From: a virus
Strand: one strand, 5' to 3'
IMG/VR virus record: IMGVR_UViG_3300007639_000015
Coordinates: 1-23,040 of that record
Length of the DNA: 23,040 bases
The notes below the pieces were generated by a model, which searched no databases, had not been told where the DNA came from, and was given only the letters and a program-made list of their open reading frames with translations. Made by a program: the position numbers and the translations under genes. This document shows, piece after piece, positions 6,617 through 22,873 of this stretch (position 1 is its first letter; each line of letters opens with the position of its first letter).

Positions 6617-8908
6617 ATGACTGGCACTCTAATAAAGCCAAAAGTAGCTATCGTGGAAACTAAACAAAGCAGAACTAATTTTAAACAAGAATTTGAACAC
6701 GCGTTCGAGTTCGATCAATACCAGCTTTGTTCAGACCCTACAATTAAAAAGGTTCTGAAGAGAGACTGCGATATTCAAATAGACGTTGACGCTTACGACT
6801 GGATAATTCTCGTAGGGTCTGACGCACTCAAATACTTTACTAAGAACGGTTCTGTAACCGAGTATTCTGGTAAATCTGTAGACGGTAGGTACTTGCCAAT
6901 CATTAATCCAGCTATGCTTGCATTTAAGCCAGAAGCTAAGAAAACCTGGGACAGCTCTAAAGATAACATCATTGCTTATATCGCAGGGGATATTGAAGAG
7001 GTTATAATTGACGAAAGTATTGCTTTTGGTATCCAAAGTACCGAAGAAGCAAATAGATTTATTCAGGCGGCGATTGATGCTCCTAAATCTTATATTGCTC
7101 TTGACTCGGAGACCACAGGACTATATCCCCGTGATGGTTATATGCTTGGTATATCCATAGCCTATGACAATAAGCGTGGAGCATACATTGATACCGAGTG
7201 TTTCGATGAACGAACAGAAGAGCTGCTACAAGAACTATTTAGTAAGAAAACTGTAGTATTTCACAATGCTAAGTTCGATATGGCGTTCTTTGAGTACCAC
7301 TTTAACTTCAAGTTCCCTAGCTTTGAAGATACTATGCTTCTGCACTATCTCATTGATGAGAACCCGGGCACTCATGGTCTAAAGTCTCTAGCGATCCAGT
7401 ATACGCCTTATGGTGATTACGAGAAGCCAATGTACGATTGGATGGATAATTACAGGAAGGAGCGGGGTCTCAACAAAGATCAGTTCAGTTGGGGAATGAT
7501 TCCATTCGACATTATGAAACTATACGCAGGTATGGATGCTTTGTGTACCTTCCTGCTTTACGAGAAATTTGTAAAAATTAAACAGAATCCAAAGCTAAAG
7601 TGGGTATATGATAATATTCTTATTCCTGGCTGTCGATTCTTGACTGATATTCAAGATAACGGTGTACCTTTCGACCGAACACGTTTGGAGTTCTCGCAAG
7701 AGGCTATGCAGACAGACATTGATAATGCTGTTACTGAAATGTACAAAAACCCTGCAATTAAAAAGTTTGAGGAAATAAATGGTAAGCCCTTTAACCCTAA
7801 TAGTACTATGCAGCTTCGTAAGCTCATGTTTGATTTTTTGGGTTTATCGCCCACTGGTAAAAAGACTGGTACTGGTGCGGACTCCACAGACGCTGAAGTA
7901 CTTAAAGAACTATCCGAACAGTCCGAGATTCCTGCACTTATCCTTGATATTCGACAAAAAGGCAAGATCAAGAATACCTATCTCGATAAGATTATACCTC
8001 AGTTGGATCGCGACTCTCGACTTCGTACTGGTTTCAATCTTCACAGTACAACTAGTGGTCGGTTATCATCTAGTGGCAAGTTGAACATGCAGCAGCTTCC
8101 ACGTGATAATCCTACTGTAAAGGGTTGTATCAAAGCTGCTCCAGGACATAAGATTGTAGCGATGGACTTAACAACAGCAGAGGTATATGTAGCTGCTGTA
8201 CTCGCAAAAGATACTGCTCTTATAGAAGTTTTCCGTACAGGTGGTAACTTCCACAGTGCGATCGCTCACAAAGTATTTAGACTACCTTGCGAAGTAGATC
8301 AAGTGGCAGAACTGTACCCTATGCAACGCCAGGCTGCAAAAGCAGTAACCTTTGGTATTATGTACGGTGCTGGTGCCAACAAGATCAGTGAGCAGGTAAC
8401 AAAAGATAGTGGCAAACCTTTTAGCCGCAATGATGCACAAGAAGTTATTAACGACTATTTTAAAGAGTTCCACAAGCTAAAAGCGTGGATTGAAGACAAC
8501 CAAAAGTTTATCCAGCAGAATGGATTTATTTATAGCTTCTTCGGAAGAAAGCGGAGATTACCAAATGTCCACTCGACTGACAAAGGTATACAGAGTCATA
8601 GCGTTAGGTCTGGTCTTAATTTTCTGGTGCAGTCTGCTGCTTCTGATATTAACCTCTTAGGTGCAATCGACATGGAAGCACATATTAAAGCGAAGAAGAT
8701 GAAGGCACGTATATTTGCTCTAGTACACGACTCCATCCTCGCAGAAGTACCAGACGAAGAAGTAGAAGATTACACAGCAGCATTACAACATTACATTCAG
8801 TTAGACAGGGGTTTAAGTATCCCAGGTGCCCCCGTAGGATGCGACTTTGAGATTGGCGATGACTACTCAATGGGCAAGTTTGAGAAATTATATGGAATCA
8901 TTACTTAA
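6617..8908 (+). CDS. DNA polymerase, family A, with 3'-5' exonuclease
   Basis: The replicative polymerase, 763 residues. A phage-specific N-terminal region (1-150) precedes the DnaQ-like proofreading domain, with LDSETTG (D163, E165) and HNAKFDMAFF; ED-MLLHYL and HGLKSLA follow. The polymerase domain has motif A MDLTTAEVY (D517, E522), motif B RQAAKAVTFGIMYG (R571, K575, F579, Y583) and motif C VHDS (D705). Motif A reads DLTTAEV rather than DYSQIEL, and motif C is HDS rather than HDE. I recall DLTTAEV from T5-type polymerases. There is no 5' nuclease domain; that activity is encoded at 17369. The start abuts the HNH stop, and the end overlaps the radical SAM gene. Confidence 0.95.
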   Translation: MTGTLIKPKVAIVETKQSRTNFKQEFEHAFEFDQYQLCSDPTIKKVLKRDCDIQIDVDAYDWIILVGSDALKYFTKNGSVTEYSGKSVDGRYLPIINPAMLAFKPEAKKTWDSSKDNIIAYIAGDIEEVIIDESIAFGIQSTEEANRFIQAAIDAPKSYIALDSETTGLYPRDGYMLGISIAYDNKRGAYIDTECFDERTEELLQELFSKKTVVFHNAKFDMAFFEYHFNFKFPSFEDTMLLHYLIDENPGTHGLKSLAIQYTPYGDYEKPMYDWMDNYRKERGLNKDQFSWGMIPFDIMKLYAGMDALCTFLLYEKFVKIKQNPKLKWVYDNILIPGCRFLTDIQDNGVPFDRTRLEFSQEAMQTDIDNAVTEMYKNPAIKKFEEINGKPFNPNSTMQLRKLMFDFLGLSPTGKKTGTGADSTDAEVLKELSEQSEIPALILDIRQKGKIKNTYLDKIIPQLDRDSRLRTGFNLHSTTSGRLSSSGKLNMQQLPRDNPTVKGCIKAAPGHKIVAMDLTTAEVYVAAVLAKDTALIEVFRTGGNFHSAIAHKVFRLPCEVDQVAELYPMQRQAAKAVTFGIMYGAGANKISEQVTKDSGKPFSRNDAQEVINDYFKEFHKLKAWIEDNQKFIQQNGFIYSFFGRKRRLPNVHSTDKGIQSHSVRSGLNFLVQSAASDINLLGAIDMEAHIKAKKMKARIFALVHDSILAEVPDEEVEDYTAALQHYIQLDRGLSIPGAPVGCDFEIGDDYSMGKFEKLYGIIT

Positions 8909-9833
8909 AAATATTTATAGAATAGACTTGGATACGACAGGATTGTGCAATAAAACTTGTACATTCTGTCCTCGAACTAATATCAGCTACCCTAATGTAA
9001 ATGAGCATATGAGCTTAGAAACCTTGCAGATAGTGATAGACGAGATGAAGTCTTTCCACTTTACTGGTTGGGTAGAGCTTGCAGGTCGTGGAGAGCCAGT
9101 ACTCTATAAACACTTTGCCAAAGCAGTAGAGTTACTAACACAGGAAGGCAGGACTTGGAAACTGCGAGTCACTACGAATGGGTATAAGATTGATACACAT
9201 TGGAAGAAGTCTTTTTCAAAGATAGACCATCTCATTTTGAATACGTACACGGATGAGGCGGAGTTTAAGTCAAGACTAGTAAAGTATCAATATTTGCACG
9301 GTACTGATAAGAAGGTAGAGCATTACTTCAAGCCAGATGGGTTGAGTATACAAGAAATAAATAACTTACCTCCTATAGAAGATACATTACACCCCGGTAA
9401 GTATTTTAATTATGTATTCAATAACCGAGCGGGTTGGTTTAATGATAATACAGTTGATACACCTTGTTGGCATCCAATGCGACAAATCTTTATTGACTGG
9501 AAAGGTAACTATCAGATGTGTTGTAACGATTGGAAGTACCAGATTATTATAGGTAATATCCATGAAAGAAGTATGGTTGATATGTACCTGAATGATCCGA
9601 AGCTAAATAGAATACGTTGGAGTCTACTAAATAAAAGACGCAGTGATATTCTACCCTGCTCTAGATGTGACGATTCCCAAGGCGGCAGTAAAAATACAGT
9701 TAAAACCATAGAAAAATTTAGGCAGTCTAACGAATATAAGTTCCATGTAGCTAAGATTGCAGGTGGCGAAGGGGCTAAGTTTAGAAAGGAGTTGTTAGGT
9801 GGTGATCTCATTCCGGTCTATCAAGAAGATTGA
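8892..9833 (+). CDS. Radical SAM protein with SPASM-like C-terminal cysteine region
   Basis: A 313-residue radical SAM enzyme. CNKTCTFC (C19, C23, C26; C-x3-C-x2-C) binds the 4Fe-4S cluster that cleaves S-adenosylmethionine, and GRGEP (65-69) is the family's second motif. The C-terminal part holds C192, C210, C211, C256 and C259 in the pattern C...GNYQMCCND...GN...C-x2-C, typical of SPASM/twitch auxiliary-cluster domains, which often act on peptides or proteins. The substrate is unknown. ATG 8892 overlaps the polymerase end by 17 bases; a longer frame back to 8847 starts deep in the polymerase without an SD. The last 35 bases overlap the next gene, suggesting coupled expression. Confidence 0.88.
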   Translation: MESLLKNIYRIDLDTTGLCNKTCTFCPRTNISYPNVNEHMSLETLQIVIDEMKSFHFTGWVELAGRGEPVLYKHFAKAVELLTQEGRTWKLRVTTNGYKIDTHWKKSFSKIDHLILNTYTDEAEFKSRLVKYQYLHGTDKKVEHYFKPDGLSIQEINNLPPIEDTLHPGKYFNYVFNNRAGWFNDNTVDTPCWHPMRQIFIDWKGNYQMCCNDWKYQIIIGNIHERSMVDMYLNDPKLNRIRWSLLNKRRSDILPCSRCDDSQGGSKNTVKTIEKFRQSNEYKFHVAKIAGGEGAKFRKELLGGDLIPVYQED

Positions 9834-21166: not shown

Positions 21167-21195
21167 AAAAAAAGCCCCTTAATTGGGGCTTTTTA
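21167..21195 (+). terminator. Bidirectional intrinsic terminator between convergent operons
   Basis: The perfect stem AAGCCCC/GGGGCTT (core 21172-21191) with loop TTAATT has an A-run (21167-21173) on the left and a T-run (21190-21194) on the right. It therefore terminates both the plus-strand array and the minus-strand operon. It separates stops at 21165 (plus) and 21196 (minus). Confidence 0.95.
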
Positions 21196-21384
21196 TTAAC
21201 CAAAGAAACGTAATATAGGAAAAGGCTCCATACCAAAAAATAAGATACCTATACCATTTATAATAATAATCTTAACGGCTATACCAAAAATCAGTAGTTT
21301 AAGCATAAATTTAAAGGTCAGAGGCTCTTTTCCAGTTATCACCTTCCAAATAGGCCAATCCCATTTGCCGTTCTTTATAAACAT
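21196..21384 (-). CDS. Small single-helix membrane protein (62 aa)
   Basis: A 62-residue product with a charged and aromatic N-terminus (FIKNGKWDWPIWK) and one long hydrophobic segment (about 26-52, MLKLLIFGIAVKIIIINGIG and on), ending PFPILRFFG. It is the last gene of the minus-strand operon, overlaps the Coq4-like gene by 10 bases and stops one base before the terminator, which argues that it is real. No SD stands out, so coupling to the upstream gene is likely. Lysis-related or membrane-anchoring roles are possible, but nothing identifies one. Confidence 0.6.
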   Translation of the reverse strand: MFIKNGKWDWPIWKVITGKEPLTFKFMLKLLIFGIAVKIIIINGIGILFFGMEPFPILRFFG

Positions 21385-22178
21385 TGCAATACTTTATCGT
21401 TGTATTCTGGGTGTATAGAGTCAAGTCTAAAATCTTCTCTGTGTTTAGATACATAGTCATAAAACTTAACCGCTGTACCTATATTATATTTAGCTCGGGC
21501 TTCTTCAATATCTAGCTCAATAATCTCTAAAGGATTAATCTCAAAGAAAGATCTATCAGCAGCTCTGGCTAGTTTGTAAGCTTCTCTCAGAACTCTAAAA
21601 GGCTCTATGCTTTTATGATCCCAGGCCACTCTACTTGCCATAACATAAGATAGATATTTAGGGCCTACATGCCCACCAATCATAACCGAGGTAACAGCTT
21701 GAATACAGGCCTCTCCCAGTCGAGATGTATCATATCGAAACATAATATGTTGAAAGTCATGAGCTAGAAATACGTGACGAGCGATATTCCCTCGTATATC
21801 TTGTATAGCTGTTGGAAGTTCTGGTTCTTCAAACCTTTTATCCCACAACTCTTGAAAAGACCATTGTTTGATTAAATAGTTATAATGACCCCCAACCGTA
21901 TTAGGGGCAAAGGATTCCATAGTTTGCTGGTTAGTAATAACTGGGATAATATTATTTAACTGAAACTCTTTTGTTTTATCCTTCCTTCCCCACATGATAT
22001 CTCTACCTCTAGGCGTTGCTCTAAAGGTACGTAGCGTTTTAATGTTAGAAGGAAACTCCATTTGAGTATTCATATCTCTTGCAATAGAGGCTGCAGCTAT
22101 AACATCACTGCTATCTTTATCTTCTGCTTTTAGCCACATGGCTTTTGTAAGTTTAGCTATCTTTATGGGATTCCACAT
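21375..22178 (-). CDS. Coq4-like protein (HDxxHx11E motif)
   Basis: The 267-residue protein contains AHDFQHIMFRYDTSRLGEA (139-157), an exact H140-D141-x2-H144-x11-E156 metal-binding motif as in the COQ4 family, followed by the family's GxE/helix region. COQ4 proteins act in ubiquinone biosynthesis; the eukaryotic protein has been linked to removal of the C1 substituent of the ring. Length and overall helical character match. The N-terminal 50 residues are less typical. SD AAGGAG precedes the ATG with good spacing. It lies in a minus-strand operon of apparently virion- or late-type genes, so a role in host quinone metabolism is plausible but not shown. Confidence 0.72.
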   Translation of the reverse strand: MWNPIKIAKLTKAMWLKAEDKDSSDVIAAASIARDMNTQMEFPSNIKTLRTFRATPRGRDIMWGRKDKTKEFQLNNIIPVITNQQTMESFAPNTVGGHYNYLIKQWSFQELWDKRFEEPELPTAIQDIRGNIARHVFLAHDFQHIMFRYDTSRLGEACIQAVTSVMIGGHVGPKYLSYVMASRVAWDHKSIEPFRVLREAYKLARAADRSFFEINPLEIIELDIEEARAKYNIGTAVKFYDYVSKHREDFRLDSIHPEYNDKVLQCL

Positions 22179-22189
22179 TATATATCTCC

Positions 22190-22873
22190 TTATTTGTATA
22201 AGCGCATAATTCGTACACGCTTAGTACCCTTATTTGTTAGTACTTTTGACTCGGACGTTATTTTATATATTTCAAAACGTCTTAATACATTGTCTCCGCT
22301 ATTAATTTCACCAAATGCAGCAATAAAGCATTCTGTACCTACTCTGTTAATTTGTATATCGGCACCCGGTTCCACAGTTATACTTTCTTTAGTGTAAGCC
22401 TCGAACTGGCCATTTAATATAGAACAACAAAACAACTCGGCATTATCTGACAAAGCTGTAATTGTCGCCTTACGCGAAGCAAGAACCCAGTTATATGTAG
22501 GGTTTGTCCAGTCAGGCAGATAAAAATCAGCATCTAATACGGTCTTAGTTACTTTATTCGCTTCAAAATCTTTCACAGTAGTAGCATAAGGTGAATCGCT
22601 TAACTCAATAAAAGTATCTATCTCACTCTCTGTAAAATCTCCTGCATCCCACTCCCAACACACCTGCCAAGACCCAGCTACAAAAGCATTTAGGTTACGA
22701 TTTTCGAGTAAAAAAGAGTAGTCTGGGTGACGCACAGGGGTACCATTATGATGTATACTATCAAGCAAGTCCTGTCTCTGGATATATTGACCAGTACGAA
22801 TATTTTGAGCAAAAGTTACGTTTAAGTCACCGTAACAGCCTGGCCAATAGAATATAATAGTAGTTTCTATCAT
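22190..22873 (-). CDS. Hypothetical protein, possibly virion-associated (227 aa)
   Basis: No family is recognised. The 227-residue protein appears beta-rich, with many aromatic residues (FYWPGCYGDLN, WQVCWEWDAGDF, YNWVLASRK). A C-terminal segment with the cadence of a small jelly-roll or OB-like module (ALSDNAELFCCSILNGQFEA, then ITVEPGADIQI) precedes a basic end (TKRVRIMRLYK). There is no signal peptide. SD GAGGAG is well placed. Its ATG overlaps the stop of the 27-residue gene upstream, and it is followed 11 bases later by the Coq4-like gene. A tail or receptor-binding accessory protein is one possibility. Confidence 0.7.
   Translation of the reverse strand: MIETTIIFYWPGCYGDLNVTFAQNIRTGQYIQRQDLLDSIHHNGTPVRHPDYSFLLENRNLNAFVAGSWQVCWEWDAGDFTESEIDTFIELSDSPYATTVKDFEANKVTKTVLDADFYLPDWTNPTYNWVLASRKATITALSDNAELFCCSILNGQFEAYTKESITVEPGADIQINRVGTECFIAAFGEINSGDNVLRRFEIYKITSESKVLTNKGTKRVRIMRLYK

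Follow-up and report, generated by a model that had tools for sequence, protein, structure and literature searches.

A phage branch of the COQ4 family paired with a small membrane protein

Introduction

COQ4 (PF05019) is a metal-binding family of the biosynthetic pathway of ubiquinone (coenzyme Q), and its chemistry is debated. The HDxxHx11E motif has been described for these proteins (PMC7615680). For ancestral animal COQ4 a separate decarboxylation is proposed: removal of the C1 carboxyl group requires Zn and the HDxxH/E residues, and the activity is lost in metal-site mutants (PMC7615680). Human COQ4, on the other hand, is reported to be an oxidative decarboxylase that performs the decarboxylation in one step (reviewed in PMC11495197). 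The solved structures closest to the protein described here are those of the cyanobacterial COQ4-like proteins Alr8543 (6e12), crystallized with oleic acid and Mg, and Npun02000094 (3msq). Several COQ4 homologues per genome occur in some Synechococcus and Myxococcota, with five to six matches in Synechococcus WH7803, and for this reason a COQ4 fold is no proof of work on ubiquinone. Cyanobacteria synthesize plastoquinone, not ubiquinone.

Phages carry photosynthesis, nucleotide and redox genes. A search of open-access papers turned up no published phage COQ4. This report describes a COQ4-family gene of T5-like, T4-like and podovirus-like phages, together with the small membrane protein encoded beside it.

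The window and its minus-strand genes

The stretch of DNA analysed (the window, 23,040 nucleotides) makes up a viral record of 23 kb that is probably a fragment. T5-like genes occupy its plus strand: NAD ligase, D5-like regulator, helicase, primase, DNA polymerase A and SbcC/SbcD. Putative ribonucleotide reductase-like ORFs can also be read on this strand. The DNA polymerase is approximately 44% identical to the polymerases of Vibrio phage pVp-1 and its relatives. The NAD-dependent DNA ligase is apparently split across two plus-strand ORFs (869–1804 and 1826–2653), the first with adenylation/OB and the second with weak HHH/BRCT similarity. A Radical SAM/SPASM protein is encoded within the replication block (8847–9833, plus strand); it reaches no curated subfamily cut-off in NCBIfam. 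The COQ4 gene is read from the minus strand and converges on the T5-like early/replication genes. Only three complete genes are found on its strand, and the features are as follows.

21169–21194, minus strand: hairpin resembling an intrinsic terminator, closing the minus-strand operon within the convergent gap
21196–21384, minus strand: single-pass membrane protein of 62 amino acids, the conserved COQ4 partner, with a 10-base overlap
21375–22178, minus strand: COQ4-family protein of 267 amino acids with an ATG start, identified by sequence, profile and fold comparison
21711–21761, minus strand: HDxxHx11E metal-site motif (H140, D141, H144, E156; residues 140–156) at the aligned COQ4 position
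22190–22873, minus strand: bicupin-fold protein of 227 amino acids, adjacent to COQ4 on the upstream side in 19 of the 27 representatives

The original prediction spoke of a late-strand operon. The minus-strand location is correct; late status would follow from the upstream minus-strand genes, which have a tail-like appearance in relatives that share the window's phage type. The overlap of the one-helix membrane gene with the COQ4 ORF, given there as 10 bases, is exact.

Membership of the COQ4 family

The motif stretch HDFQHIMFRYDTSRLGE spans residues 140–156 of the 267. Taken alone it is weak evidence, since HDxxHx11E arises in 80 of 100,000 shuffles of the window protein. In the alignment, however, it coincides with the metal site of COQ4. 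By itself the window protein scores 15.5 bits (E 0.011) against Pfam Coq4, where the cut-off of 22.9 bits is a detection threshold and no biological trait. That cut-off is passed by 20 of the 21 related records tested, and G002 (locus L004), 57% identical to the window protein, lies above it. Each of 12 members has a Pfam Coq4 match with E ≤ 0.1, the best at 2.1e-9. Their joint profile finds the solved COQ4 structure 3msq (E 8e-4), and hhalign against proteobacterial COQ4 gives 99.4% and E 6e-22 over 214 columns. The AlphaFold model of the window protein, of moderate confidence (pLDDT 78), has the all-helical COQ4 fold. Its only strong fold matches in the PDB are the COQ4-family structures 6e12 (Z 19.4, 2.4 Å over 202 residues) and 3msq (Z 17.4); the next, unrelated row stands at Z 4.3. 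Single-sequence and annotation searches were weak: phmmer of the window protein against the PDB returned noise only, there was no PHROG match and no relevant NCBIfam match, and PADLOC matched neither COQ4, nor the membrane partner, nor the bicupin.

The relatives' Pfam scores, the profile–profile alignment and the fold matches make membership of the COQ4 family firm. Homology, fold and motif conservation are direct observations here, and the original reading of HDxxHx11E as the mark of a COQ4 family member is borne out. A predicted structure unlike COQ4 had been named as grounds for abandoning that reading; the model proved to be COQ4-like. An amphipathic N-terminal helix was considered as a membrane anchor of the window protein and rejected: its hydrophobic moment is no better than that of shuffled sequences.

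A phage clade apart from cellular COQ4

Successive IMG/VR searches yielded 55 related loci, down to approximately 28% identity. HDxxHx11E is present in every one, and its four metal-site residues are invariant (55/55; 51 + 4). The carriers are a group of mostly uncultured phages. A tblastn search with four divergent queries gave no match in 50,697 phage records, and phage-type COQ4 was not found in 84,980 cellular genomes by a pattern-limited search based on the phage alignment. In the closest relative, a highly repetitive Thr/Ser-rich protein with TSRGTVTSRATTTAYTTTYNT repeats is encoded in a tail-like region (L001:578–1900, plus strand).

A phylogeny against cellular proteins, proposed with the original prediction, places all 27 phage representatives on one side of a branch of length 2.2 with support 99/99; the cellular sampling was limited to Pseudomonadota, Bacteroidota, Cyanobacteria and a few others. 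The phage proteins are thus a single clade, far from the cellular COQ4 sampled. Their best cellular profile matches are COQ4 proteins of Pseudomonadota. Residues common to both are V95, G96, Y99, the four metal-site residues, Y149, G155 and R228, whereas N131, H135, Q160, E199 and D223 are phage-specific. The (near-)invariant glycine that follows HDxxHxL in proteobacterial COQ4 (HDxxHxLxG) is mostly arginine in phages (R-Y versus GY), and phages lack the F..Q pair that follows the glutamate (GE). The second-shell signature of proteobacterial COQ4 (GY, F..Q) is accordingly absent from the phage proteins. Judged by these residues, the metal centre appears to have been retained while its surroundings were altered.

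The phage protein resembles COQ4 in fold, in HDxxHx11E, in the TVG and E.R elements and in a profile alignment of 214 columns. It differs in forming its own clade with other second-shell residues, in carrying a conserved C-terminal tail beyond the COQ4 domain and in being paired with a conserved small membrane protein. The cyanobacterial proteins of known structure share the HD..H, T and GE motifs, but are cellular and only 12–15% identical to the phage protein.

The membrane partner and selection on the locus

A membrane ORF of 60–80 amino acids lies directly downstream of COQ4, overlapping or abutting its stop codon, in 25 of the 27 representatives; only L025 and L030 lack it. The product has one hydrophobic helix, preceded by an N-side net charge of +3 to +8. 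Five residues are invariant (W8, P11, K38, N43 and P56), and K38 and N43 lie within the helix. The partner profile is essentially absent from 200 Pseudomonadota genomes, with one marginal partial match. A membrane setting had been suggested from the single neighbouring gene of the window; a partner that is conserved and co-transferred supports it strongly.

Between the window and L003, dN/dS is 0.083 for COQ4, 0.060 for NrdB, 0.21 for the partner and 0.40 for the upstream bicupin gene. COQ4 evolves like an enzyme. The bicupin, unlike COQ4, evolves like a surface-exposed structural protein; it is probably a virion or tail accessory and outside the core COQ4–partner pair. Its model is confident (pLDDT 93) and it has no PHROG match. 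A metal-dependent cupin was ruled out for this gene, as there is no invariant His. Weak Pfam matches of neighbouring genes to TM250 and PH_34 fall below the cut-off and were taken as chance.

Exchange between phage types

COQ4 is carried by T5-like phages (the window, L003, L004, L006 and L009), by T4-like phages (the L008 group and L030) and by podovirus-like contigs (L033). The nearest exonucleases to that of the L008 group belong to Methylophilales phage Melnitz and Sinorhizobium phages, the L030 terminase is 69% identical to that of Kyanoviridae phage C48C1, and the stabilization protein of L033 is common to Octadecabacter and Pelagibacter phages. L032 is T4-like by its neighbouring genes. 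Compared with the T5-like L004, its COQ4 is 72% and its partner 80% identical, against 28% for the backbone exonuclease. Compared with the T4-like L008, COQ4 is 43% and the partner 25% identical, against 84% for the exonuclease, 76% for peroxiredoxin and 79% for the IscU-like protein. The pair thus matches a T5-like phage and the other genes match T4-like kin, and COQ4 with its partner makes up an exchangeable module across the three phage types. L009 is T5-like (NrdB 92% identical to the window), yet its COQ4 is only 37% identical. Purifying selection, genetic linkage and joint transfer are observed directly, and the joint movement of the two genes speaks for cooperation between their products. 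In belonging to a metabolic family, occurring in several kinds of phage, being under purifying selection and moving between phages, the gene is like known phage auxiliary metabolic genes; it differs from them in travelling with a membrane protein.

In the L008 group, peroxiredoxin, phosphoribosyltransferase and glutaredoxin genes form a block beside COQ4, joined in most members by IscU- and IscA-type Fe–S genes. The order in L008:6862–10068 and relatives is peroxiredoxin, phosphoribosyltransferase, small membrane protein, COQ4, partner, IscU-like, IscA-like and glutaredoxin. Such a neighbourhood suits a redox setting for COQ4.

Proposed function

The metal ligands of the phage protein and their spacing are identical to those of animal COQ4. 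Because these are kept and because the neighbourhood is of redox type, the favoured reading, to which we give about an even chance, is a COQ4-type enzyme that docks at the membrane, depends on a metal and works on a host quinone precursor or a similar prenyl-lipid. The phage-specific COQ4 protein, a putative metalloprotein, and the small inner-membrane protein would form a membrane-docked two-protein unit. (i) The positively charged N-terminus of the partner, with its W-x-x-P motif, would face the cytoplasm and keep COQ4 docked on the surface of the membrane. (ii) Its single helix would put the invariant Lys and Asn inside the membrane. (iii) The COQ4 pocket, by homology, may accept a long-chain prenyl or acyl lipid. 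(iv) A metal bound by HD..H/E would act on the lipid head group. (v) By comparison with C1 decarboxylation in animal COQ4, the most likely substrate would be a prenylated aromatic compound from which the host makes its quinones. (vi) Infection would thereby sustain or redirect ubiquinone supply, presumably to the benefit of the phage. Together the data suggest that this module, swapped between unrelated phages, changes the quinones or similar lipids of the host membrane during infection. If so, a viral lineage of a quinone-pathway family, with its own partner and traded as a unit, would indicate that infection targets quinones or prenyl-lipids. Small, divergent phage COQ4 proteins would also be material for resolving the debated chemistry of the family. 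More speculatively, COQ4 and the partner with its intramembrane Lys and Asn might carry out a reaction unlike the established COQ4 step and in this way rewire the pool of host quinones or prenyl-lipids, for instance to gain control of respiration and membrane potential while the cell is infected.

The original prediction of a COQ4 auxiliary metabolic gene stands as to homology, and its respiratory-quinone role is best worded conditionally, given the phage clade's own second-shell residues, the multicopy cellular homologues and the apparent isolation of the gene. COQ7 and UbiE/COQ5 homologues, the two coq functions searched for, were detected in none of 21 related viral records, all of them fragments. 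The long branch to the cellular COQ4 sampled, the absence of the partner from L025 and L030 and the moderate confidence of the model also tell against the favoured reading. A narrower proposal is that phage COQ4 supplements host ubiquinone synthesis by the alphaproteobacterial or animal reaction and could replace the host enzyme. The Pseudomonadota profile matches and the shared V95, G96, Y99, metal ligands and R228 speak for it, but the altered second shell, the missing pathway genes and the near-absence of the partner from Pseudomonadota make it doubtful; its likelihood overlaps that of the favoured reading, so the two are not additive.

It is also possible, though rather unlikely, that the COQ4 fold serves as a lipid carrier or membrane scaffold which, with the partner, remodels the inner membrane (lysis timing, superinfection exclusion or envelope change). 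The oleic acid held by 6e12, the paralogues in genomes such as that of the cyanobacterium Synechococcus WH7803, a COQ4 homologue within a natural-product cluster (PMC10783134), the phage-specific second-shell residues and a one-helix partner whose membrane segment contains charged and polar residues are all consistent with such a role; however, the invariant metal ligands and enzyme-like dN/dS favour catalysis, and no known defence or phage protein family is matched. A virion or tail-assembly component reusing the fold, the alternative raised originally, would fit the position of COQ4 after bicupin and tail-fibre genes in T5-like and podovirus-like contexts, but is improbable in view of strong purifying selection far below the bicupin rate (0.08 versus 0.40), the invariant metal site, the metabolic neighbourhood in T4-like phages and passage between phage types together with a membrane protein.

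Sensor cyclases of the T4-like contigs

The T4-like marine phage contigs also carry a gene for a membrane CHASE2–class III nucleotide cyclase (L008:3596–5503, plus strand), with scores of 8.9e-32 for Pfam CHASE2, 6.6e-19 for Guanylate_cyc and 2.6e-23 for the PADLOC Pycsar cyclase profile. Genes of the same cluster are present in L012, L019, L024, L031 and L032. A phage-encoded sensor cyclase is unusual.
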